Assembly: GCF_009728145.1 (NCBI RefSeq) | Contig: NZ_WOCA01000005.1 | Span: forward strand, 1 to 64,000 | DNA length: 64,000 bases | Origin: Ornithinibacillus caprae | GTDB taxonomy: Bacteria; Bacillota; Bacilli; Bacillales; Amphibacillaceae | Direction: 5' to 3' | Part shown: positions 51,887 to 63,104 of the stretch, piece after piece | Layout of the letters: each line of letters opens with the position of its first letter | How positions within the stretch are numbered: position 1 is the stretch's first letter | Notes under the pieces: model-generated | Databases searched by the model: none | What the model saw: only the letters and a program-made list of their open reading frames with translations | Told to the model about the DNA's origin: nothing | Position numbers and translations under genes: made by a program

Positions 51887-51923
51887 TGAAATCGTTTACA
51901 AACTTTTCAGAATCCGTTACACT
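51887..51923 (+). promoter_or_regulatory. Promoter with overlapping cre (CcpA) site for the glutarate operon
   Basis: TGAAATCGTTTACA (51887-51900) matches the catabolite-responsive element TGWAANCGNTNWCA at every position. Its end is the -35 box TTTACA (51895-51900), followed by a 17-bp spacer and TACACT (51918-51923). CcpA binding here would block RNA polymerase, so the operon should be shut off on preferred sugars. Confidence 0.85.
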
Positions 51924-51929
51924 ATTAGT

Positions 51930-52094
51930 AATGAGTCATGACTAAGTGTTTCTGCACTAATTCTCATGACCTTCCAATCGAATGAAATACACTGCCTAAC
52001 TTGTTACAGTCCTACTCCAGGTCTGACCCAACAAGTATCAAGCCAGTTCATCTTGACTTACAGCTACCTGTGGTCTATTTGAACTGGCTTTTTT
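51930..52094 (+). ncRNA. Candidate leader RNA before the CoA-transferase gene
   Basis: About 165 nt lie between the promoter and an intrinsic terminator, ahead of the operon. Visible folds are a hairpin with perfect arms GTCATGA/TCATGAC (near 51937-51969) enclosing AGTG/CACT; a central CTTGTT/AACAAG stem (near 52000-52035); then the terminator (52040-52094). It matches no riboswitch class that I can recall (not the lysine, T-box or glycine types). It may be an attenuator, or a small RNA ending at the terminator. Confidence 0.5.
52040..52094 (+). terminator. Intrinsic terminator inside the leader
   Basis: 11-bp perfect stem AAGCCAGTTCA (52040-52050) with TGAACTGGCTT (52080-52090), and T's to 52094. 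The 29-nt loop includes a small ACAG/CTGT hairpin. It is 36 bases before the CoA-transferase start. Confidence 0.85.
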
Positions 52095-52129
52095 AGTATG
52101 ACATGAATCAATTAGAAAGGAGTGAACAT

Positions 52130-53275
52130 GTGGCTAGTGCATTAGAAAACATTCGCGTGCTTGATTTATCCCGAGTCCTTGCTGGTCCTTACTGTACGAT
52201 GATTTTAGGTGATTTAGGTGCAGAAGTCATCAAGGTTGAAGCACCAGGTGGTAGCGACGAAACGAGAAAATGGGGACCACCTTTTCAGAATGATGTCAGT
52301 GCCTATTATCTATGTGCAAACCGAAATAAGAAAAGCATAACCGTTGACCTAAAAACAAAGGAAGGCATTGAAACGATTAAAGATCTAGTTGCTGAGAGTG
52401 ATGTTCTCATTCATAATTTTAAAACTGGTACGATGGAACGTTTTGGCTTGGATTATGACACGCTTACAGCAATAAATCCTAAGCTTGTCTTTTGCTCCAT
52501 TACAGGATTTGGGGAGACTGGGCCCTATAAAGACATGCCAGGTTATGACTTTATTATCCAAGCAATGAGCGGTCTAATGAGTATTACTGGTGATGAAGAT
52601 TCTGGTCCACAAAAGCTAGGAGTCGCTATTACCGACATCCTCACTGGCCTTTATGCATGTATTGGTATTCAAGGAGCATTATTGGAAAGAAACCAATCTG
52701 GAAAAGGACAAAAGCTAGATATTTCTCTCTATGATTCAGCAGTTAGTGCACTCGTAAATATTGGTAGTAATTATTTAATGTCTGGAAACACCCCTGCTCG
52801 ATTGGGGAATCACCATGCCAATATTGTACCGTATCAAACATTCCAAACGTTGGATGGAGAAATGGTAGTTGCAGTAGGAAATGACAAACAATTTAAAGCT
52901 TTATGTATGATTCTTGGAAAACCAAAATATAGTGATGATGATCGGTTTAAAACAAACCCAGATCGAGTAGCAAATCGTGATGTATTAGTGCCATTACTTC
53001 AAGAGGTTTTTCTAACCAAACCTACCTCCTATTGGCAGGAAAAATGTACAGATAATAATATCCCATGTGGACCAATTCAAAACCTTGAAGAAGTTGCCAA
53101 TGACCCACAGCTAAATTTTAGGAATATGTTTATTGATATGGAACACCCGACAGCTGGAATGATCAAGATGATTGGGAGTCCTTTAAAGCTATCCCGCACA
53201 CCGGTGACGGTTAAACATCACCCCCCTGACCCAGGTGAGCATAACCATGAAATTTTTACCAAATCTAAGCATTAA
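52130..53275 (+). CDS. Class III CoA-transferase (CaiB/BaiF), probable glutarate CoA-transferase
   Basis: A 381-residue family III CoA-transferase. LDLSRVLAGPYCTMILGDLGAEVIKVEAPGGSDETR and NRNKKSITVDLKTKEG are the CoA-binding start; the catalytic Asp is in PGYDFIIQAMSGLMSITG. GTG 52130 is the start, with AGGAG 7 nt before it; the ATG at 52103 overlaps that ribosome binding site. It lies before an acyl-CoA dehydrogenase and a semialdehyde dehydrogenase, so glutarate (with succinyl-CoA as donor) is the inferred acceptor. Other dicarboxylates cannot be ruled out from sequence alone. Confidence 0.85.
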   Translation: MASALENIRVLDLSRVLAGPYCTMILGDLGAEVIKVEAPGGSDETRKWGPPFQNDVSAYYLCANRNKKSITVDLKTKEGIETIKDLVAESDVLIHNFKTGTMERFGLDYDTLTAINPKLVFCSITGFGETGPYKDMPGYDFIIQAMSGLMSITGDEDSGPQKLGVAITDILTGLYACIGIQGALLERNQSGKGQKLDISLYDSAVSALVNIGSNYLMSGNTPARLGNHHANIVPYQTFQTLDGEMVVAVGNDKQFKALCMILGKPKYSDDDRFKTNPDRVANRDVLVPLLQEVFLTKPTSYWQEKCTDNNIPCGPIQNLEEVANDPQLNFRNMFIDMEHPTAGMIKMIGSPLKLSRTPVTVKHHPPDPGEHNHEIFTKSKH

Positions 53276-53295
53276 AAATTAGGAGCTGAGTATGT

Positions 53296-54504
53296 ATGGA
53301 TTTTCATTTTTCAGAAGAACAAACCATGTTAAGAAGTACCGTTAGAAGTTTTGTAGATAAGGAAATTATGCCTCATATTGCAGAATGGGATCGTCAAGGA
53401 AAATTCGATCCAGCTATTATCCCTAAGCTAGCTAACTTAGGCTTAATGGGCGTATGTATCCCCGAACAATATGGTGGCAGTGGAATGGATTATAACTCAC
53501 TAGCTATTGTTTGCGAAGAACTAGAAAGAGGAGATACTGCATTCCGAACAGCAGTGTCTGTTCATACCGGACTAAATAGCATGACACTGCTTCAATGGGG
53601 GACAGAGGATCAGAAGCAAACGTATTTAGTCCCACAAGCGAAAGGCGAAAAAATTGGTGCATTCGGACTTACAGAGCCAGGAGCTGGTTCCGATGTAGCT
53701 GCGATCCAATCGACTGCTGTGAAAGAAGGAGATTATTATATTTTAAATGGACAAAAAACATGGATATCCCTATGTGACACAGCAGATCATTTTATTGTTT
53801 TTGCTTATACTGATAAATCGAAGAAACATCATGGAATATCAGCATTTATTGTAGAACGTACATGGGAAGGTTTTTCCTCTAAAGCAATTAAAGGAAAACA
53901 TGGTATTCGTTCCGGTAATACTGGAGAAATATTTTTTGAAGATGTAAAGGTTCCAGCAGAAAATCTCCTAGGTGAAGAGGGAGAAGGATTTAAAATTGCG
54001 ATGTCAGCATTAGATAATGGGCGGTTCACCGTTGCTGCTGGTGCTGTTGGACAGATTATGGCTTGCTTAGAAGCTAGTGTTAATTACTGCCATGAACGGG
54101 AGACATTTGGTAAACCGATTGGTAAACATCAGCTTGTTCAACAAATGATTGCCAAAATGGAAGCAGGATTACAGATGAGCCGACTACTTGTCTATCGTGC
54201 AGGAGAATTAAAAAATGAAGGAAAACGAAATACAAGAGAAACCTCTCTTGCTAAATGGCAGGCGTGTGATTTTGCTAATAAAGCAGCTGATGACGCGATG
54301 CAAATTCATGGTGCATATGGTTATTCAGATGAATACCCAGTGGAGCGTTATTTACGTAATTCTAAAGCTCCTGTAATCTATGAAGGAACACGTGAAATTC
54401 ACACGATTATGCAAGCGGAATATGTATTAGGCTACCGACAGGATAAACCGTTAAATAAAATGCTCCCTGCTTGGAATTCAGAGGAGAAAGAAACCGTTAA
54501 ATAG
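53296..54504 (+). CDS. gcdH: Acyl-CoA dehydrogenase, probable glutaryl-CoA dehydrogenase
   Basis: A 402-residue flavoenzyme. FGLTEPGAGSDVAAIQSTA and YILNGQKTWISLCDTADHFIVF bind FAD; the catalytic Glu is in KAPVIYEGTREIHTIMQAEYVLG. Neighbouring genes for glutarate activation suggest it oxidises and decarboxylates glutaryl-CoA to crotonyl-CoA. The C-terminal arm differs from that of short-chain dehydrogenases (HTIMQAEYVLGYRQ). AGGAG precedes the start; the gene is 20 bases after the CoA-transferase. A general short-chain or branched dehydrogenase remains possible. Confidence 0.85.
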   Translation: MDFHFSEEQTMLRSTVRSFVDKEIMPHIAEWDRQGKFDPAIIPKLANLGLMGVCIPEQYGGSGMDYNSLAIVCEELERGDTAFRTAVSVHTGLNSMTLLQWGTEDQKQTYLVPQAKGEKIGAFGLTEPGAGSDVAAIQSTAVKEGDYYILNGQKTWISLCDTADHFIVFAYTDKSKKHHGISAFIVERTWEGFSSKAIKGKHGIRSGNTGEIFFEDVKVPAENLLGEEGEGFKIAMSALDNGRFTVAAGAVGQIMACLEASVNYCHERETFGKPIGKHQLVQQMIAKMEAGLQMSRLLVYRAGELKNEGKRNTRETSLAKWQACDFANKAADDAMQIHGAYGYSDEYPVERYLRNSKAPVIYEGTREIHTIMQAEYVLGYRQDKPLNKMLPAWNSEEKETVK

Positions 54505-54516
54505 TACCTCTTGAAA

Positions 54517-54637
54517 GCACCTACCAATTGATAGAAGAAGGTAGGTGCGCTATGCTTATTAGTAAGAAAAAGTCGTGTGAAATTATGTATATCTCACTCT
54601 ACGACTTAATTAGGATAAGAAAGCATATTTTCTTATC
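54517..54637 (+). other. Three hairpins between gcdH and the aldehyde dehydrogenase gene
   Basis: GCACCTACC/GGTAGGTGC (54517-54548), AAGTCGT/ACGACTT (54570-54607) and GATAAGAAA/TTTCTTATC (54614-54637). None has a proper T-run. They could process or stabilise the operon mRNA or partly end it. Confidence 0.5.
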
Positions 54638-54663
54638 TACTAAAAAAGAGGAGGTTTTAGGCA

Positions 54664-56112
54664 ATGATTCAAACGTTAACGAAAAGTATTTACATTAACG
54701 GCGAATGGAGAGAAGTTGATCAGAACCAAACACAAGTCATTTACAATCCTGCTACACTCGAGCCTATTACAGAAGTAGCATATGGAGGTGCAACGGAAAC
54801 GAAAGAGGCGATCGAAGCCGCTTCAAATGCATTTCCTACCTGGAGTGAAATGACTGGAAGACAGCGTTCTCGTGTGCTATACAAAGCTTCTGAGCTAATG
54901 AGAAAAGATGCTAACCGATTAGGTGAAATCCTAACAAGCGAACAAGGAAAACCACTTAAAGAAGCAATTGGTGAAGTAAAGGGTGCTGCAGGATTTTTAC
55001 TATGGTATGCAGAAGAAGCAAGTCGCGGCTATGGTGAATGGATTCCCTCTTCCATCAAATCGAAACGAATGCTCGTCATTCCTAAACCAGTTGGTGTAGT
55101 CGGTGCTATTACGCCTTGGAACTTTCCATCTTCCATGATTACACGTAAATTAGGTCCCGCATTAGCTGCCGGGTGTACCGTTGTATTAAAACCATCACCA
55201 GAGACCCCTCTATCCGCAATAGAGATTGTAAAAATCTTTGAACAAGCTGGTATGCCTGCCGGAGTTGTCAATCTAGTAACTGGAGACGCTCAGGAAATAG
55301 GTAAAGAAATGCTAACAAATAAGGAAGTAAAAGCTATTACCTTTACCGGTTCAACGGAAGTTGGCAAATACTTAATGCGTGAGAGTGCAGATCATGTAAA
55401 GAAGGTTGCGCTTGAATTAGGTGGTCATGCACCAATTATTGCTTTTGAGGATGCTGATATTGATAAAGCTACCACACTAGCACTAGGAAGTAAGTTTAGA
55501 AATAATGGGCAGACCTGTATCTGTGCAAACCGATTATATGTGCATGAATCAATAGCTGAAGAATTTACGAATACACTTAAAGAAAAAGTACAGCAGCTTA
55601 AAATCGGCTCTGGTTTAGAAGAGGATACCGATCTTGGGCCGCTAATTAGTGATAAAGCAACAGAAAAAGTGCAAGCCCATTTAGATGATGCCATTCAAAA
55701 GGGGGCAAATATCGTGTGTGGCGGAAATAAATGGGATGGCGACCTAAAGGGTTACTTCTATCCACCAACCGTTATTTCCAATGTTACCGATGACATGGTT
55801 GTCATGCGAGAAGAAACTTTTGGACCGTTATTCCCAATCCAAACCTTCTCCGATGAAGCTAGTGTCATTGAAAAAGCAAATAATACAGATTATGGGTTAG
55901 CTGCATATATATTTACTGAGAATACATCTCGTACATTACGAGTAGCAGAAAAGCTTGATTACGGAATTGTCGGAGTCAATGATGTATTCCCTGCCGTACC
56001 AGAAGCACCATTTGGTGGAATCAAACAATCTGGTAATGGAAAAGAAGGTGGCCATCATGGTATGGATGAGTTTTTAGAAAGAAAGTTTATTTCTATCGGA
56101 ATCGACTCGTAA
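54664..56112 (+). CDS. NAD(P)-dependent semialdehyde dehydrogenase (GabD family), probable glutarate semialdehyde dehydrogenase
   Basis: A 482-residue aldehyde dehydrogenase. NGEWREVDQNQT starts the fold; TPWNFPSSMITRK and KPSPETPLSA are cofactor parts; the general base Glu is in LELGGHAP and the catalytic Cys in NNGQTCICANR. The family is closest to succinate/glutarate-semialdehyde dehydrogenases (GabD/DavD). In this cluster the likely step is glutarate semialdehyde to glutarate. AGGAGG with a 9-nt spacer. It may be separately transcribed, because 159 bases with hairpins lie before it. Confidence 0.88.
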   Translation: MIQTLTKSIYINGEWREVDQNQTQVIYNPATLEPITEVAYGGATETKEAIEAASNAFPTWSEMTGRQRSRVLYKASELMRKDANRLGEILTSEQGKPLKEAIGEVKGAAGFLLWYAEEASRGYGEWIPSSIKSKRMLVIPKPVGVVGAITPWNFPSSMITRKLGPALAAGCTVVLKPSPETPLSAIEIVKIFEQAGMPAGVVNLVTGDAQEIGKEMLTNKEVKAITFTGSTEVGKYLMRESADHVKKVALELGGHAPIIAFEDADIDKATTLALGSKFRNNGQTCICANRLYVHESIAEEFTNTLKEKVQQLKIGSGLEEDTDLGPLISDKATEKVQAHLDDAIQKGANIVCGGNKWDGDLKGYFYPPTVISNVTDDMVVMREETFGPLFPIQTFSDEASVIEKANNTDYGLAAYIFTENTSRTLRVAEKLDYGIVGVNDVFPAVPEAPFGGIKQSGNGKEGGHHGMDEFLERKFISIGIDS

Positions 56113-56210
56113 ATTTAAGACTTGGATGACTCTTTGTATCGTCCTATGCAATTTAATAGTAGGGACTATATTAGAATCCTTAGCTTTTACCGGCCTTTAC
56201 AGTAGAAATA

Positions 56211-56258
56211 AAAAGGGTAGATGTTAGCAGGAACACCCCCTGTTCATCTACCCTTTTT
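56211..56258. terminator. Terminator between the two convergent catabolic operons
   Basis: 13-bp stem AAAAGGGTAGATG/CATCTACCCTTTT with T-run. The inner loop has GCAGG/CCTGT-like pairing. The 293-bp gap 56113-56405 holds only this. Confidence 0.9.
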
Positions 56259-56405
56259 TATATTTAGAAGGACTTCTGATCGCTGTCCAGCTCGCATTTT
56301 GCCCTTGAGATATCTTATCATGGACGTTTCACGGCTAAGAAGCTCTCATATTGTCTTTCAAAAACTATTAAGTACTTTACGGAGACAAAACTCATCTGTA
56401 CTTCT

Positions 56406-56735
56406 TTATAAACTATTATTATCCATATACGCTTCATATTGTTTATACAAATCTCTTAAAGCTGAAGCCAAAGCATTTCCTGCCTTACCCAAATAATGCT
56501 TTCTCACTTCTTCAACAGGCTCTTCAATTCCCTCCTGTAAGCTGTAGCCCCTTAATAGTTGTTGGACAAACTCCCGTCCATGTACAGTAGCTAACGTACA
56601 CCCAGCTGTCACGATAACCCCGTATTTTTTATCAATTTCAGCAGTAATCGTCAATGTATCATAAATATTTTTGGCAGCCATTCCAGATGGAAGCCTTGCA
56701 TGTCCAGCTATAAAAACGGTCTTCACCAAACTCAT
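56406..56735 (-). CDS. DUF3870 domain protein
   Basis: A ~109-residue protein: KTVFIAGHARLPSGMAAKNIYDT starts the family, then KYGVIVTAGCTLATVHGREFVQQLLRGYSL and HYLGKAGNALASALRDLYKQYEAY. DUF3870 has no known activity. A single Cys in TAGCTLAT and the GHARLP loop look like ligand- or metal-binding residues. The ATG at 56735 overlaps the IclR stop by ATGA, so it is co-translated; GTG 56726 gives better spacing for AAAGGA. Its constant position next to the regulator suggests a role tied to effector sensing or to the pathway; inference. Confidence 0.82.
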   Translation of the reverse strand: MSLVKTVFIAGHARLPSGMAAKNIYDTLTITAEIDKKYGVIVTAGCTLATVHGREFVQQLLRGYSLQEGIEEPVEEVRKHYLGKAGNALASALRDLYKQYEAYMDNNSL

Positions 56736-57475
56736 TCCTTTCTAAGTTGACTTCGATATCCTAATTTATTGGATATATCCATTGCTGTTTGCAATGTCTT
56801 CTCTTTGATTAATTCTAAGTTTTCACCGATAAAATAACTAGATAATCCACTAACGGTTAATGCAGCTATTACTTGATTACGATGATCATAGATTGGATAG
56901 GAAATCCCTGTTGTATCCGTATCCTGTTCTCCAATACTAAATGCATAGCCTCTTTCCCGAATCAACATTAATTCCTGAGCTAATCTTTCATTATTGGTTT
57001 TAGTTACTATAGCTTCTTGTTCATCTTCTGGTAAATAGGCTAGTAAAAGCTTGGGACCTGACCCAATATATAATGGGGAGCTTTTCCCTATTCTCGTATA
57101 AAGTCTCAATGCTTTGTTACTTTCCACCTTCTCAATATATGTAGCCTCATGTTGATTTACGATCACAAGATGAACGGCTTCATTGATTTGCTCTGCCAGG
57201 CTCTCCATAAATGGTAAAGCTGTTTTTCTTACTTCTAATTGATCCGCAACAAGTTGTCCTAATTCTAATAGTTTTAGCCCTAAGCGATAGCGACTATCAT
57301 GCTCCGAGTTTTTTAGTTTATGAACATATCCCATTGCTTCTAATGAACTTAATAATCGGTATGCAGTTGGTTTAGGCAGATTAGCTTTGATAGCAATTTC
57401 TTTTAATGTTAGCTCATCTACATCCTCCGTAAATAATTCAAGCATATTTAATGCCTTGACCACACTTTGATTCAT
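56732..57475 (-). CDS. IclR family transcriptional regulator
   Basis: A ~247-residue IclR regulator. The N-terminal winged helix has VVKALNMLELF, LTLKEIAIKANLPKPTAYRLLSSLEAMGYV; the C-terminal effector domain has LGLKLLELGQL, INEAVHLVIVNQHEATYIEKVES and RERGYAFSIGEQDTDTTGISYPI. Start 57475 is chosen: it begins MNQSVVKALN as usual and has AAGGGG upstream; the ATG at 57532 overlaps the previous stop but has no ribosome binding site. It is the fifth gene in the lysine operon and is the likely binder of the palindromes at 57504 and 63127. Confidence 0.9.
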   Translation of the reverse strand: MNQSVVKALNMLELFTEDVDELTLKEIAIKANLPKPTAYRLLSSLEAMGYVHKLKNSEHDSRYRLGLKLLELGQLVADQLEVRKTALPFMESLAEQINEAVHLVIVNQHEATYIEKVESNKALRLYTRIGKSSPLYIGSGPKLLLAYLPEDEQEAIVTKTNNERLAQELMLIRERGYAFSIGEQDTDTTGISYPIYDHRNQVIAALTVSGLSSYFIGENLELIKEKTLQTAMDISNKLGYRSQLRKE

Positions 57476-57503
57476 ACCCCATTTCCCCTTGTAAGGAAAA
57501 TGT

Positions 57504-57523
57504 CCCTCTACTAGAGTAGAGGG
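57504..57523. promoter_or_regulatory. Palindrome just before the IclR gene
   Basis: CCCTCTACT-AG-AGTAGAGGG, 9-bp perfect arms, in the 56 bases between the lysine dehydrogenase stop and the preferred IclR start. It could be an operator, or an mRNA hairpin tuning regulator level. Its sequence differs from the operator at 63127. Confidence 0.5.
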
Positions 57524-57531
57524 ATTTTCCA

Positions 57532-58704
57532 TTAAATATTCACATGCGACTTTTCTAGTTTTTCTGTTTCTTTGATATGAACATTCCGTTTTGCCATCTC
57601 ATCCATATACAATTTACCAGGAACGATCTTTTCTGGTGGATATACCCCAGGTTTATCAATCTCCCTACTTGCAATCATTTGTGCTACTACAGAGATTGTA
57701 TTTGCTGTTGCTCTTGCCATTGCAGTAACGTTGGTTGAACGATCTTTATAGGTTGTCATTTCATATTCATACGTTACTTGTTCCCCATTTTTAATTCCTG
57801 AAACAATAACCCGGAGAAGAACAGCATCATCTTTGTCACCTAGGTCAACAATTGGTTCCAACACTTTTAATAATACATCTCGAGGATTTACCTTTTGTCC
57901 CTTCACATCAACCTGATAATCCATCCGAGTTAAATTTAAATCCACGAGCAGTTTAAATTTCTCCGCATGTCCTGGGTAACGAATTGTTTTATATTCCAAT
58001 GTATTCACATTTGGAAATGATAGCGGTAATGTTGATGTTCCCCCAGATGTATGAAATGCCTCTAACGGTCCAAATTTTTCAAAATGTACCCGCTCTACTT
58101 CAGATAAAGAAGGTACTTCCTGTTTAATTCCATTCCGAATGATTAACGAAGGGTCTGTATAGTGATCAAATACTCCTTCCATGGAGAATACATGATTATA
58201 TTCCAATGGTGGTTCCGGACGAACAGGAATACCTCCAACGTAAAGTTTGATAGATTCAAGTTGATCAAGTTTACTAGCTCCATAGCCTGACAAAATATTG
58301 ATCATTCCTGGTGCTACTCCAAGATCTGGAATTAACGTCACATTAGCAGCTTCCGCTTCCTCCTTTAAGGCCAATACCTTATCTGTCATATGTCCAATAT
58401 GTCCACCAAGATCAACCGAGTTAACTCCTACTTCAATAGCGGTTTTTGCAACCACTTCATTGAATGAGTAGAATAAGGCATTGATGATTACATCAAATTG
58501 TCTCATGTAATTTGCCAGCTCTTGTTCATCACTTGCATCCACTTGATATGCAGTTAGTTTTGAAGAATTTAACCCATCACACACTTGCCTAGCTCGCTCT
58601 AGGTCTATATCCGCTAGCCCTACTGCTTCAACACCATCACTAGCAACTAAATCACGTGCCGCTTCCTTTCCCATTAAGCCAGATCCTAGTACACCTATTT
58701 TCAT
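57532..58704 (-). CDS. L-lysine 6-dehydrogenase (saccharopine dehydrogenase family)
   Basis: A 390-residue NAD-dependent dehydrogenase. The Rossmann start [20 protein letters not shown] and the blocks [52 protein letters not shown] and [20 protein letters not shown] recall Geobacillus stearothermophilus lysine 6-dehydrogenase, which oxidises the epsilon amino group to give 2-aminoadipate semialdehyde (piperideine-6-carboxylate). AAGGAG before ATG 58704 sets the start; the frame extends to a GTG at 58713. A saccharopine reductase role is the alternative. The aldehyde dehydrogenase next to it fits the product. Confidence 0.85.
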
Positions 58705-58733
58705 AACACTCACTCCTTTTCAAGTCATATGAA

Positions 58734-60230
58734 CTATTCCACATCAATTTGTGCGCGCTGAAGCTTTCCACTAAAATCTACGTACACAGCTTTCCACTCT
58801 GTAAATACATCTAATGCTTGAACCCCAGAATCGCGGTGACCATTACCTGTACCTTTTGCTCCACCAAATGGCAAATGAATTTCCGCCCCTGTTGTTCCAG
58901 CATTGACATACACAATTCCTGTATCAAGATCACGCTGTGCTTTAAACACACGATTAACATCCTGTGTAAAGATAGAGCTTGATAATCCATACGTGACACC
59001 ATTGTTCACTTCAATTGCCTCTTCAAAGCTTTTTACTGGGATCAACGATACAACCGGACCAAAAATTTCCTCTTGAGCAATCCGCATATCCGCTGTTGCA
59101 TCTGTAAACAATGTCGGTGCAAAATAATGTCCTTTTCCTAAATCGCCCTCTGTTAACTCATAGCCTCCAGCTAATAGCTTAGCACCTTCGTTCTTTCCAA
59201 TTTCAATATAATTTTTAATTTTATCTAAGCCCGCTTTATTAATAATTGGACCAACTTTGATCGATTCATCTAACCCGTTACCTATCGTCAGCTTTTCCAT
59301 TTCCACTAATAAGCGTTCTTCTAATCTCTCTTTGACATCTTCATGTACAATCACACGACTGCATGCCGTACAACGCTGTCCACTTGTGCCAAATGCACTC
59401 CATAAAATCCCTTCTACAGCAAGATCTAAATCAGCATCATCCATAACAATAACTGCATTCTTTCCTCCCATTTCCAGAGAGACCTTCTTTAACTGGCGAC
59501 CACATTCTCCAGCTATATTACGTCCGGTTTCATTGGAACCCGTAAACGAAATAACACGAATATCATCATGGTGGACCATAGCATCACCAACCGTAGATCC
59601 AGATCCGAATACTACATTTAGAACACCTTTTGGTAAACCAGCTTCTTCAAAAATCTTCGCTAACTCATATGCCATAATCGGTGTTTCTGTTGCAGGTTTC
59701 CAAATCACTGCATTACCCGCAACAATTGCAGGGAATGACTTCCAAGTTGCTATCGCAATTGGGAAGTTCCATGGTGTGATAATACCAACAACACCGATTG
59801 GTGCACGAACACTCATAGCAAATTTATCCTTTAATTCGGCTGGTGTTGTTTGACCGAATAATCTTCTTCCTTCTCCTGCCATATAAAATGCCATATCAAT
59901 TCCTTCTTGTACTTCCCCGCGGGCTTCCTCAATTACCTTCCCATTTTCCATTGTTAATAGCTGGGATAATCTTTCCTTACGCTCTTTCATTAAGTTTCCT
60001 ACACGATAAAGTACCTCTGCTCGTTGCGGTGCTGGAACTAAAGCCCACTCCTTTTGCGCTGCCTTTGCTGCCTTAACAGCTTGATTAACAGCTTCACCAT
60101 CTGATAATGGAACATCCACTACGGTCTCTCCTGTAGCCGGATTAATAACCGGAGTAGTTTTTTCTACCTCTACCCATTCTCCATTTAAAAAGTTTGCTAA
60201 CTTTTTTGTCTTAAGTGATACATCTGTCAT
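58734..60230 (-). CDS. Aldehyde dehydrogenase, probable 2-aminoadipate semialdehyde dehydrogenase
   Basis: A 498-residue aldehyde dehydrogenase. FLNGEWVEVEKTTPVINPATG begins it; TPWNFPIAIATWKSFP and WKPATETPIMAYEL bind NAD(P); the general base Glu is in LEMGGKNAVIV and the nucleophile Cys in SGQRCTACSR. The frame FGGAKGTGNGHRDSG is at the end. It resembles 2-oxoglutarate-semialdehyde and aminoadipate-semialdehyde dehydrogenases alike; beside lysine 6-dehydrogenase it most likely makes 2-aminoadipate. TAGGAGGG is upstream of the start. Confidence 0.85.
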   Translation of the reverse strand: MTDVSLKTKKLANFLNGEWVEVEKTTPVINPATGETVVDVPLSDGEAVNQAVKAAKAAQKEWALVPAPQRAEVLYRVGNLMKERKERLSQLLTMENGKVIEEARGEVQEGIDMAFYMAGEGRRLFGQTTPAELKDKFAMSVRAPIGVVGIITPWNFPIAIATWKSFPAIVAGNAVIWKPATETPIMAYELAKIFEEAGLPKGVLNVVFGSGSTVGDAMVHHDDIRVISFTGSNETGRNIAGECGRQLKKVSLEMGGKNAVIVMDDADLDLAVEGILWSAFGTSGQRCTACSRVIVHEDVKERLEERLLVEMEKLTIGNGLDESIKVGPIINKAGLDKIKNYIEIGKNEGAKLLAGGYELTEGDLGKGHYFAPTLFTDATADMRIAQEEIFGPVVSLIPVKSFEEAIEVNNGVTYGLSSSIFTQDVNRVFKAQRDLDTGIVYVNAGTTGAEIHLPFGGAKGTGNGHRDSGVQALDVFTEWKAVYVDFSGKLQRAQIDVE

Positions 60231-60264
60231 GCTAAATCCCTCCTAAAATTAGTGAATGATTATG

Positions 60265-61929
60265 TTATCGATTACGAAGTTGTGTAATCGTTGATGATAC
60301 AGAAATTTGCTCCTTATCTGTCCGTATTTCAATTACAGTTGGCTTCTGTGACATTAACGCTTGATCTAGTGCTGATTCAAATTGACTTAGCGAATCAACT
60401 TGGTATCCCACTGCGCCAATGCTTACCGCTAGGTCGACAAATGAAACAGTACCCAAATCAGTTGCCATTACTCTTTTTGGATAATGAATTTCCTGATGCA
60501 TTCGAATGGTTCCATACATATTATTGTTAAATACAAGCGCAATAATTGGAATCGATTCACGAACTGCTGTTTCTAGCTCCTGAACCGTCATCATAAAGCC
60601 ACCATCACCAGATAGGGAAACAACTATTTTCGATGGATAAGCAAGCTTTGCTCCTAATGCAGCTGGCATGCCATATCCCATTGCACCAGATGTTGGTCCA
60701 ACGTATGTATGTTTTTCTGTAAATGGATAAAAAGCATGTAACCATCCAGCAAAGTTACCCGCATCATTGGTTAAAAGTGATTCCTTTGGTAGTTTATTAG
60801 CTAGCATATGGATAATATGCTTATTAATCACATCATCTTCACTAGGGGGTATATCACTCACTTCTCTATACGTAGCGTTACATTTCCCTGCCCAAACCGA
60901 CCAGGAAGGCATTACTTTTATGCGCTGAAGCATTTCTAACGCTTCATATAAGTCTGATATGATCCCTAGACAAGGTGGATACACCTTTCCAATTATGTCA
61001 TGCTCGATATCTATGTGAATGAGCTTTTGATCATTGTTTATTAAAGTATAATCCTGAGTAGTTACTTCTGAAAGTCTCGTTCCCAGTGCCAAAATAACAT
61101 CTGCATCTTGAACCAGTTGAAGAATCTTCTTACTCGTCCCCAGCCCAAGATGACCTGCATACATGGGATGATTATTCGGAAACACGTCATGACGACGAAA
61201 TGCTGTCATAACTGGAATGGTGAATCTTTCGGCAAAGCCTACCAAAAGCTCCTCAGCTTTAGCTAACTTTATTCCTCCCCCTGCAATGATGAGAGGTGAT
61301 GTTGCATTTGCGAGTAATTGTTTAACCTGGTTTGTTTCGGTTTCAGAAGGTGCTGGCTTCGGCCGTTGGATTACTGGTCCAAAAGACATCTCTCGTTCAA
61401 CTGGTAAAATGTCTTCTGGTAAAGAAACGATTACAGGTCCAGGTCTACCAGATTTTGCAATTCGAAAGGCACGTTGAACAATTTCCGGTATTCTTTCTGG
61501 ATCCTTTACTTCCACTGCCCATTTAGAAATAGGTTTGAAAAATTGATCCAAATCGACCTCTTGAAACCCTTCTCTTCCCCGAAACTTACTATGCACCTGC
61601 CCTAGAAACACAACCATCGGAGTAGAATCCTGATAAGCAGTATGTACCCCAATAGATAAATTGGTAGCACCTACTCCTCTTGTCGCCAGTACAACCCCTG
61701 GCTTTAATGCCGCTTTCGCATAACCCTCCGCCATAAAAGCAGCTCCACCTTCATGTCTTGTAGAAATTACTCGGATTGTAGGTTCATCATATAATGCATC
61801 TAAAACTGGTAAATAGCTTTCACCAGGTACACAAAATACTTGATTAATAGTTTCTCTTTTCATGCATTCAACAATCGCTTGAGCAGCAGTCATATTCATT
61901 TTCTCTTGAGCGCTATGGTGTGCACACAT
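60265..61929 (-). CDS. Thiamine-diphosphate enzyme, candidate 2-oxoadipate decarboxylase
   Basis: A 554-residue enzyme of the acetolactate synthase/benzoylformate decarboxylase superfamily. Glu60 in RHEGGAAFMAEGYA is the catalytic ThDP-activating residue; the ThDP motif GDGGFMMTVQELETAVRESI and VFNNNMYG are at ~445-475; all three domains are complete. The gene lies between the aminotransferase and aminoadipate-semialdehyde dehydrogenase genes and has no small regulatory subunit of acetolactate synthase. I infer that it decarboxylates 2-oxoadipate to glutarate semialdehyde. AGGAG lies ~12 nt before ATG; ATG 61899 is also possible. Confidence 0.82.
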   Translation of the reverse strand: MCAHHSAQEKMNMTAAQAIVECMKRETINQVFCVPGESYLPVLDALYDEPTIRVISTRHEGGAAFMAEGYAKAALKPGVVLATRGVGATNLSIGVHTAYQDSTPMVVFLGQVHSKFRGREGFQEVDLDQFFKPISKWAVEVKDPERIPEIVQRAFRIAKSGRPGPVIVSLPEDILPVEREMSFGPVIQRPKPAPSETETNQVKQLLANATSPLIIAGGGIKLAKAEELLVGFAERFTIPVMTAFRRHDVFPNNHPMYAGHLGLGTSKKILQLVQDADVILALGTRLSEVTTQDYTLINNDQKLIHIDIEHDIIGKVYPPCLGIISDLYEALEMLQRIKVMPSWSVWAGKCNATYREVSDIPPSEDDVINKHIIHMLANKLPKESLLTNDAGNFAGWLHAFYPFTEKHTYVGPTSGAMGYGMPAALGAKLAYPSKIVVSLSGDGGFMMTVQELETAVRESIPIIALVFNNNMYGTIRMHQEIHYPKRVMATDLGTVSFVDLAVSIGAVGYQVDSLSQFESALDQALMSQKPTVIEIRTDKEQISVSSTITQLRNR

Positions 61930-61943
61930 ATCATTTTCATCTC

Positions 61944-63104
61944 CTACAAATCTAACTTTTTCAAACGATCAATCACTTCATCTATACGTCCAATAGGTAC
62001 AGATAATGCAATGCGGACATATCCTTCTCCGGAAGGTCCAAATGCTGTCCCAGGTGTTACAATTACACCCGCTTTCTCCAGTAACATGTTTGAAAATTCT
62101 ATAGATGTGTGGTTAGCAGGCGTTTTTGCCCATAGAAAGATGGTCCCTTTTGGCTTTTGTACTTCCATGCCAATTTCATGTAATGCTCCGTATAGCTTTT
62201 CCATGCGTTCTTGAAATACAGCATTATTTTCTTTTACCACAGATAAATCACTTTTAAGTGCAGTTGCTGCAGCCTTTTGGATCGGGATAAACTGACAGGT
62301 ATCCATATTGCTTTTTAATGTAGCAATTGCTTTAATAATCGTTTTATTCCCTACAACATATCCAATCCTCCATCCAGTCATATTAAAACTTTTCGATAAT
62401 GATCCAAACTCAATGGCATTGTCTTTTGCATTCGGAACCTGCAATACACTTGGTGCTTTATATTCCCCAAACGTTACCAGGTCATAAGCAGCATCATGAG
62501 CAAGTAACATATGATTATCCCGCACAAATGTAATCGCTTCCAAAAATGTATTCAACCCTACTGTTGCAGAAGTTGGATTGCTTGGATAGTTTAAAAATAA
62601 TAGTTTTGCTTTTTCTTTCACTTGATCAGGTACAAGATTAAATTTAGGAATATAACCGTTCTGTTGATCCAACGGTAAATATTCACTCACTCCTCCTGCT
62701 AGATGGATTGCCGTACGATAAACTGGATATCCGGGATCTGGTATTAATACTGTATCGCCTGGGTTAATGACTGCTTGCACAAGATTGGCAATGCCTTCTT
62801 TTGATCCAATGAGTGTAAGAACCTCCGAATCGGGATCTAATTCCACTCCATAATGGCTCCTATAATGTTGTGCTACAGCATTTCTATAGTCTGATATCCC
62901 ATCATAGCTCGAGTAACGATGGTTACTTGATACCTTAGCCTCTTCAATTAACTTATCGATCACAAATTGAGGTGTTGGTAAATCAGGAGCACCTATTCCT
63001 AAATCAATGACATCGACACCTTGTTTTTGCAGTTTCTTCTTTTTTCGTTGAAATTCAGAAAACAAATACGGCGGTAAATCCTTTACCCTGTTCGATACTT
63101 GCAT
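61944..63104 (-). CDS. Class I/II aminotransferase, probable 2-aminoadipate aminotransferase
   Basis: A 386-residue PLP enzyme, fold type I. DVIDLGIGAPDLPTPQFVIDKL, YSSYDGISDYRNAVA, LNYPSNPTSA and HDAAYDLVTFGEYKAPS precede the PLP Lys in EFGSLSKSFNMTGWRIGY; the Arg binding the carboxylate is in EGYVRIALSVP. It is similar in form to LL-diaminopimelate aminotransferases. As first gene of the lysine operon it likely converts 2-aminoadipate to 2-oxoadipate. GGAGGATGAAGAGGG precedes the ATG. Confidence 0.85.
   Translation of the reverse strand: MQVSNRVKDLPPYLFSEFQRKKKKLQKQGVDVIDLGIGAPDLPTPQFVIDKLIEEAKVSSNHRYSSYDGISDYRNAVAQHYRSHYGVELDPDSEVLTLIGSKEGIANLVQAVINPGDTVLIPDPGYPVYRTAIHLAGGVSEYLPLDQQNGYIPKFNLVPDQVKEKAKLLFLNYPSNPTSATVGLNTFLEAITFVRDNHMLLAHDAAYDLVTFGEYKAPSVLQVPNAKDNAIEFGSLSKSFNMTGWRIGYVVGNKTIIKAIATLKSNMDTCQFIPIQKAAATALKSDLSVVKENNAVFQERMEKLYGALHEIGMEVQKPKGTIFLWAKTPANHTSIEFSNMLLEKAGVIVTPGTAFGPSGEGYVRIALSVPIGRIDEVIDRLKKLDL

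Follow-up and report, generated by a model that had tools for sequence, protein, structure and literature searches.

The lysine riboswitch is a terminator-controlled metabolite riboswitch, and the D-lysine/aminoadipate route of Pseudomonas putida proceeds through 2-oxoadipate and the enzyme HglS. The pipecolate-aminoadipate part of the latter route is covered in PMC5653290. Glutarate catabolism in P. putida and Escherichia coli involves glutaryl-CoA dehydrogenation or CsiD (GlaH) and LhgO, as described in PMC5974017, PMC6265302 and PMC6667623; according to the first two, CsiD hydroxylates glutarate, and the third names the proteins CsiR and GcdR as the glutarate sensors of P. putida and mentions glutarate build-up in glutaric aciduria type I. 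For LysEDH of Geobacillus stearothermophilus, a published homology model (PMC6697735) places seven residues around lysine (V130, V172, F173, H181, Y238, T240, R242). Here, we describe a locus of Ornithinibacillus caprae in which nine clustered genes would carry lysine to crotonyl-CoA and a new structured leader RNA would control the glutarate operon in cis. It lies in a window of 64,000 nucleotides, i.e., the whole stretch of DNA that was analyzed (contig NZ_WOCA01000005.1, positions 1 to 64,000). We regard the pathway as likely in the form drawn below, its combination with a glutarate-sensing ON riboswitch as reasonably likely, and the leader RNA, a strong candidate for a new class of glutarate riboswitches, as the more surprising of the two results.

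Set beside these systems, the locus has aminoadipate and 2-oxoadipate in common with the P. putida D-lysine route, the same kinds of glutarate-consuming enzymes in common with P. putida and E. coli, and, if its structure is as predicted, an aptamer-like domain closed by a helix that would compete with an intrinsic terminator in common with the lysine riboswitch. It differs in the prediction of a thiamine diphosphate (ThDP) enzyme and of glutarate semialdehyde where P. putida employs HglS, in that a leader RNA is predicted to sense glutarate where the known system employs proteins, and in that this leader has a new sequence and regulon and matches no Rfam family.

The nine genes form two convergent operons at 51.9-63.1 kb of the window. 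A preceding sequence-only reading had listed them as adjacent and in this order; all nine reading frames are present and open, and domain and family searches agree with the family names it gave. The plus strand carries a trio of CoA-transferase (CoAT), acyl-CoA dehydrogenase (ACAD) and an aldehyde dehydrogenase (ALDH) resembling succinate-semialdehyde dehydrogenase (SSADH), and the minus strand carries six genes encoding an aminotransferase (AT), the ThDP enzyme, a second aldehyde dehydrogenase (ALDHb), lysine 6-dehydrogenase (LysDH), an IclR regulator and a DUF3870 protein:

52116..52124, plus strand: ribosome-binding site AAAGGAGTG of the CoA-transferase gene, recognized in the sequence
52130..53275, plus strand: class III CoA-transferase, predicted acyl-CoA:glutarate CoA-transferase, 381 aa from GTG
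53296..54504, plus strand: acyl-CoA dehydrogenase, predicted decarboxylating glutaryl-CoA dehydrogenase
54664..56112, plus strand: SSADH-like aldehyde dehydrogenase, predicted glutarate-semialdehyde dehydrogenase
56406..56735, minus strand: DUF3870 protein, often beside glutarate or acyl-CoA genes
56732..57532, minus strand: IclR-type regulator
57532..58713, minus strand: lysine 6-dehydrogenase
58734..60230, minus strand: ALDHb, predicted aminoadipate-semialdehyde/piperideine-6-carboxylate dehydrogenase
60265..61929, minus strand: ThDP enzyme (NCBIfam PRK08199 subfamily), predicted 2-oxoadipate decarboxylase
61944..63104, minus strand: class I aminotransferase (LL-diaminopimelate-aminotransferase-like), predicted 2-aminoadipate aminotransferase

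The ATG assigned to the CoA-transferase by the open reading frame caller (52103) precedes the ribosome-binding site, and the GTG at 52130, the start used in the sequence-only reading, fits behind it and is probably the true one.

Upstream of this GTG lies a structured, terminator-bearing leader at about 51930-52096, on which the sequence-only reading was silent. Its elements, with the basis of each call where one applies, are as follows:

51895..51923, plus strand: sigma-A-like promoter TTTACA-17-TACACT of the leader (consensus scan)
51935..51970, plus strand: 5' hairpin of the leader, stem A (folding of 51929-52129; comparable hairpins were picked out in other leaders by eye alone)
51988..52096, plus strand: candidate glutarate riboswitch of about 110 nt (model R1, covariation, folding)
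51991-51997/52041-52047, plus strand: P0, alternative closing helix (folds of truncated transcripts)
51999-52005/52030-52036, plus strand: P1
within 52007-52025, plus strand: P2
52040-52050/52080-52090, plus strand: terminator with U tract

Conserved terminator words before CoAT genes had surfaced in a k-mer search for shared operators; this search, made on k-mers common to the regions upstream of AT and CoAT, gave nothing convincing as an operator for both operons. The window copy scores 99.9 bits with model R1, of whose 20 seed sequences it is one, and folds with a z of -5.64. An alignment of 20 leaders made with MAFFT and not fitted to any structure folds as P1, P2 and a terminator that contains an inner stem; two-sided changes occur in 15 of its 26 pairs and 92.7% of cells pair, compared with 27-39% in slid controls. 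None of 500 shuffles reached the observed value on four of five measures, and 18 of 500 did so on the fifth (further pair types). In a model-fitted alignment of 56 copies, a kind of alignment that leans towards structure, two-sided changes rose to 23 of 26 pairs with 93.7% pairing, no shuffle in 500 matched it on any of the five measures, and slid controls were again far lower. Rfam release 15 gave no family at gathering score in the leader (five matches with E values of up to 10 fell far short of gathering), and the lysine riboswitch and every other Rfam family were accordingly dropped as identities of the leader. In the consensus scan as a whole, promoter-like sites were no more numerous than in shuffles; promoter-like boxes were seen by eye before many other leader copies, and in 75 of 76 copies of a set chosen by us the best promoter score exceeded the shuffled mean. 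We hold with high confidence that the leader is a cis-regulatory RNA.

The genomic distribution of the element ties it to glutarate genes. A contig scan with LysDH yielded 75 loci, mostly from Oceanobacillus, Virgibacillus, Lentibacillus and kin (loci are given below as L plus a number). The element is present in 41 of the 53 of these loci that have CoAT, in 37 of them within 400 nt before this gene; it overlaps the called CoAT start in L075, lies 495 nt before it in L058, and precedes ACAD in L081 and L090. Across the family, 68 of 81 sense copies of at least 40 bits (a count that leaves out three antisense matches of 40.8-42.2 bits overlapping sense copies) share the strand of ACAD and lie 1.17-2.44 kb upstream of it, which is the place expected just before CoAT. 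Leader copies occur in 74 family genomes, 69 of which have ACAD. Among 20 loci examined from the in-family search, a selection that does not take in every weak match, further copies stand before TRAP transporter operons of the TAXI type (L234-L237, assigned by Pfam in L237 and by 57-85% identity to it in the rest), CsiD and hydantoinase A genes (L239, L240), an amino-acid permease gene (L240) and ACAD (L252). The CsiD copies, at 31.9 and 27.4 bits, and the L239 hydantoinase copy, at 31.4 bits, are weak. L240 holds a csiD-lhgO-gabT-gabD-like set; one reference CsiD scored 423 bits against the 333-bit cut-off of the NCBIfam glutarate dioxygenase GlaH, and two of the CsiD partner genes scored 605 and 591 bits against the 299-bit cut-off for L-2-hydroxyglutarate oxidase. 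Weak matches at convergent genes, whether between them or next to them (L247, L248), were taken to be terminator look-alikes.

Beyond the family, a wider model (R2, E of 0.001 or better) matched in 30 of 140 genomes of the order and 21 of 139 of the class, the genome of the window and genome G339 belonging to both sets. After removal of the window's own match, four antisense overlaps and the two repeated matches of G339, 57 distinct sense matches in other families remained, all of which were examined, with downstream genes named by BLAST against references from RNA loci. In 43 of the 57, the match directly precedes a gene of glutarate or 5-aminovalerate metabolism, the first same-strand gene being CoAT (24), CsiD (12), a permease (3), ACAD (2), a class III aminotransferase (1) or a TRAP operon running into CoAT-ACAD (1). 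At 45 bits or more, the proportion is 26 of 27.

That the RNA is merely a conserved, ligand-free terminator, for example of the upstream gene mbl, we consider very unlikely, as its upstream P1/P2 domain covaries and the element stands shortly upstream of glutarate genes in unrelated neighborhoods. In favor of such a terminator are the weak antisense matches, which are terminator palindromes, and three loci in which mbl and LysDH flank the RNA and both CoAT and ACAD are missing. The RNA of these loci (L051 11215-11320, L072 4864-4949, L076 11372-11458) is apparently the relic of a decayed operon.

How the leader might switch is suggested by an overlap of two helices. P0 is predicted in the window as a pairing of ACUGCCU and AGCCAGU, interrupted by a C-C mismatch; it would close P1, and AGCCAGU is common to P0 and the 5' strand of the terminator. 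The 76 copies mentioned above, chosen before the run, were folded as transcripts cut before the 3' strand of the terminator; both strands were recognized in 74, and in 65 of these the three core pairs (CUG/CAG) had a probability above 0.5, with a median of 0.89. With glutarate bound, P0 would be kept, the terminator would not form and transcription would continue (ON), whereas without ligand the terminator would form. The ON direction is suggested by the role of the targets as consumers of the presumed ligand, and glutarate is named as ligand on the ground that CsiD and CoA-transferase, as predicted, share it. We find glutarate or a near relative moderately probable as the ligand. In its most specific form, the proposal is that the leader at 51988-52096 represents a new class of riboswitches found widely in Bacilli, which bind glutarate and by antitermination activate CoA-transferase/glutaryl-CoA dehydrogenase, GlaH-LhgO and uptake operons, and that it goes with a lysine route in which 2-oxoadipate has a ThDP decarboxylase of its own; here we lean towards acceptance by a little.

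Several observations count against a glutarate-sensing switch. No RNA match was found in 12 of the 53 CoAT loci (L052, L065, L067, L069, L073, L077, L079, L080, L083, L085, L087, L105). Copies before a LysDH paralogue (L238) and two hydantoinase A genes fit glutarate less directly, and 14 of the 57 other-family matches lack a glutarate or 5-aminovalerate gene directly downstream (L317 at 53.1 bits, with a Rieske oxygenase next, L331, L342, L344, L345 and nine of 30.8-33.3 bits), 13 of them falling below 45 bits. The full-length fold is that of the terminator, and since the CUG and CAG at its core hardly vary, P0 is neither backed nor contradicted by covariation.

In a possible, though less probable, alternative, the leader RNA is real and its ligand is another compound of the regulon (5-aminovalerate, glutarate semialdehyde, glutaryl-CoA, aminoadipate, lysine), or a protein antiterminator binds it. 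Copies before the amino-acid permease, a γ-aminobutyrate-type aminotransferase, hydantoinase A and the LysDH paralogue touch 5-aminovalerate or lysine more directly than glutarate. Against another ligand, CoA-transferase (24 of 57) and GlaH/CsiD (12 of 57), which most often come first after the RNA in other families, have glutarate in common (PMC5974017); against an antiterminator, the overlap of P0 and terminator could switch without a partner protein. A literature search that left most subscription papers and all of bioRxiv outside its reach, and that went by titles and abstract openings among the matches listed, turned up no description of a glutarate riboswitch. Should glutarate be the ligand, a dicarboxylate-sensing RNA would stand beside the protein-only glutarate sensors (CsiR, GcdR) of the literature accessible to us, and the aptamer could serve as a biosensor.

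Some neighbors of the RNA copies merit description in their own right. In L234 (3880-6634), a gene resembling L-2-hydroxyglutarate oxidase (69% to that of L239) stands directly before the RNA of the TRAP operon. Hydantoinase/oxoprolinase A/B genes occur within the RNA regulon or close to it (L239 5414-7727, L240 2057-6583, L344 3098-7113); their nearest NCBIfam family is caprolactamase alpha (533 bits, cut-off 1000), and they possibly provide a lactam entry to 5-aminovalerate and glutarate.

For the enzymes, we propose the following route, which the sequence-only reading had drawn and which residues, neighborhood and co-occurrence support at the level of sequence. NAD-dependent LysDH would convert lysine to aminoadipate semialdehyde (piperideine-6-carboxylate), ALDHb would oxidize this to 2-aminoadipate, and AT would yield 2-oxoadipate. 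A CoA-free decarboxylation by the ThDP enzyme would then give glutarate semialdehyde, which the SSADH-like enzyme would oxidize to glutarate, before class III CoA-transferase formed glutaryl-CoA and ACAD released crotonyl-CoA and CO2. The sequence-only reading had further suggested a search for the same cluster in related genomes: all nine genes occur together in 21 of the 75 LysDH loci, so the grouping is not chance. Individual counts are 75 for LysDH, 62 for ALDHb, 53 for CoAT, 52 for ACAD, 48 for ThDP, 45 for AT, 42 for DUF3870, 35 for IclR and 30 for SSADH, absences being soft because loci were sampled by LysDH and some are cut by contig ends. The claim that each step is served once fits the window locus and does not extend to relatives, where SSADH lies inside the cluster in only 30 of 75 loci. 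Several relatives keep LysDH and ALDHb without the other steps in the locus (e.g., L051, L060, L072), which points to a modular route.

Gene presence was also scored over 146 genomes of the family, each gene by its own E-value cut-off and with CoAT, SSADH, IclR and DUF3870 left out. LysDH and ALDHb were each present in 83 genomes, ACAD in 73, ThDP in 70 and AT in 67. The LysDH and ALDHb sets are identical (83 present, 63 absent), and all 73 ACAD, 70 ThDP and 67 AT genomes fall inside them (Fisher p of 3e-26 or smaller, uncorrected for kinship). Since the 75 loci and 146 genomes overlap partly, as some identical scores and lengths indicate, they are not independent samples.

LysDH has saccharopine-dehydrogenase NADP-binding and C-terminal domains (PF03435 and PF16653). 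PH1688 (3abi), which we take to be a lysine dehydrogenase, shares these domain types, with several of the seven pocket positions differing from the window enzyme in an alignment. The window enzyme shares the domain types of LysEDH and has all seven of its pocket residues (PMC6697735) at the same spacing; all seven are also present in 75 of 75 homologues, which were retrieved by peptide patterns of which one, MEGVFDHY, contains the pocket His. Only three of the seven are kept in an Agrobacterium protein of the saccharopine-dehydrogenase family and five in the 58% LysDH paralogue preceded by the RNA (L238). Unlike LysEDH and PH1688, the window enzyme sits within a full route to crotonyl-CoA. That the cluster instead degrades a different amino acid or a dicarboxylate, with LysDH acting on another amine, strikes us as highly improbable: saccharopine and carboxyspermidine dehydrogenases are among the PDB relatives of LysDH, but the seven lysine-pocket residues are all conserved and the downstream half of the cluster looks glutarate-specific by residues and regulon.

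In this downstream half, CoA-transferase belongs to PF02515 and carries D149, presumably the catalytic Asp of the class III fold family, within PGYDF in 53 of 53 homologues; it matches 9br6, a succinate--hydroxymethylglutarate CoA-transferase, at E 2.5e-106. ACAD residues E77, R84, Y362 and E363 are present in 52 of 52 homologues. We take E363 to correspond to the catalytic Glu of the human enzyme (E370), and R84, E77 and Y362 to its glutarate-binding Arg with Glu and Tyr (R94, E87, Y369). The two best PDB homologues of ACAD (4l1f, 5ol2) have G at the R84 position, and 3mpi, labelled glutaryl-CoA dehydrogenase, has R there together with A and V at the positions of E77 and Y362.

The ThDP enzyme, with domains PF02775/PF00205/PF02776, has the Glu E60 in 48 of 48 homologues and a GDG..NN motif at 441, which we regard as marks of ThDP 2-oxoacid decarboxylases. 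HglS (PF07063) was found in 0 of 146 family genomes, with 2 of 14 control genomes positive, and was discarded as the 2-oxoadipate enzyme here; a ThDP-type 2-oxoadipate decarboxylase is thus the best filler of the gap. From this absence and the gene context we infer that the ThDP enzyme decarboxylates 2-oxoadipate, the newest and least certain step. Literature searches on 2-oxoadipate decarboxylases, or on lysine 6-dehydrogenase with glutarate semialdehyde, which again did not reach most subscription papers or bioRxiv, returned nothing relevant.

A different reaction of the ThDP enzyme (e.g., 2-oxoglutarate decarboxylation or carboligation), with 2-oxoadipate passing to glutaryl-CoA through the 2-oxoglutarate dehydrogenase complex, seems unlikely to us. 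Its subfamily PRK08199 is named only 'thiamine pyrophosphate protein', and 5 of 73 genomes with ACAD have no ThDP gene at the cut-offs used, both of which leave room for it. However, a direct route to glutaryl-CoA needs neither glutarate CoA-transferase nor SSADH, yet both cluster; AT and ThDP genes stay adjacent even when split off to a separate place (L117, L122, L123, L139, L140, with LysDH and ACAD elsewhere in these genomes); and 70 of 70 ThDP-positive genomes have LysDH. An independent link between the ThDP enzyme and the RNA regulon is the RNA-preceded row of L318 (1335-7187), with a class III aminotransferase, an aldehyde dehydrogenase, a permease and a protein related to the ThDP enzyme at 60%. 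In L112 and L136, AT-ThDP-ALDHb stand beside FAD-oxidase-type and ornithine-cyclodeaminase/mu-crystallin-type genes (families tested on L136 proteins), which may represent a pipecolate entry to the same semialdehyde. Phylum-wide, the ThDP gene was found at E 1e-140 in 2 of 398 genomes drawn, that of the window included.

Family models and some gene contexts weigh against the predicted route. CoA-transferase misses the cut-off of NF052585 (succinate--glutarate CoA-transferase), its best NCBIfam family, with 454.4 against 750 bits, the next best family reaching 321 bits. ACAD misses NF045552 (Acd, glutaryl-CoA dehydrogenase) with 378.5 against 470 bits and scores highest, at 397.3 bits, with an acryloyl-CoA reductase model whose cut-off is 640. 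ALDHb misses NF050084 (L-piperideine-6-carboxylate dehydrogenase) with 424.9 against 730 bits, and a ketoglutaric-semialdehyde model gives it 537 bits; its predicted role is a functional analogy based on genomic context. Given these missed equivalog cut-offs and the slightly better score of ACAD as acryloyl-CoA reductase, the assignments are functional predictions rather than family certificates. L089 clusters every other step gene without ThDP, and relatives of the ThDP enzyme (41-46% identity among the best 40 of 195 records) lie on proteobacterial plasmids among other genes in four loci examined. If the route is as proposed, it would be a Gram-positive lysine route unlike those known to the sequence-only reading or to us, and would suggest a reaction for a ThDP subfamily lacking an assigned one.

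Other features of the locus concern uptake, regulation and the window itself. An NhaC-family transporter gene (Pfam on L036; L036 3840-5423) occurs in 15 loci, usually adjoining the AT or ALDHb gene, and another lies downstream of the RNA match in L362; some NhaC proteins are predicted lysine transporters. The DUF3870 gene (56406-56735; also L188, L190, L196, L200, L344) recurs in some other Firmicutes next to genes for transporters, glutarate use, methylmalonyl-CoA mutase or CoA-transferases, and the AlphaFold model of its product is small, with three strands and three helices (pLDDT 87). At the LysDH/IclR junction, a strong near-palindromic hairpin (57503-57525) lies inside the called start of the IclR reading frame, whose true start may be downstream of it. 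Finally, a 16S rRNA gene, truncated by the window start, matches with its 5' end at positions 1-126 on the minus strand.

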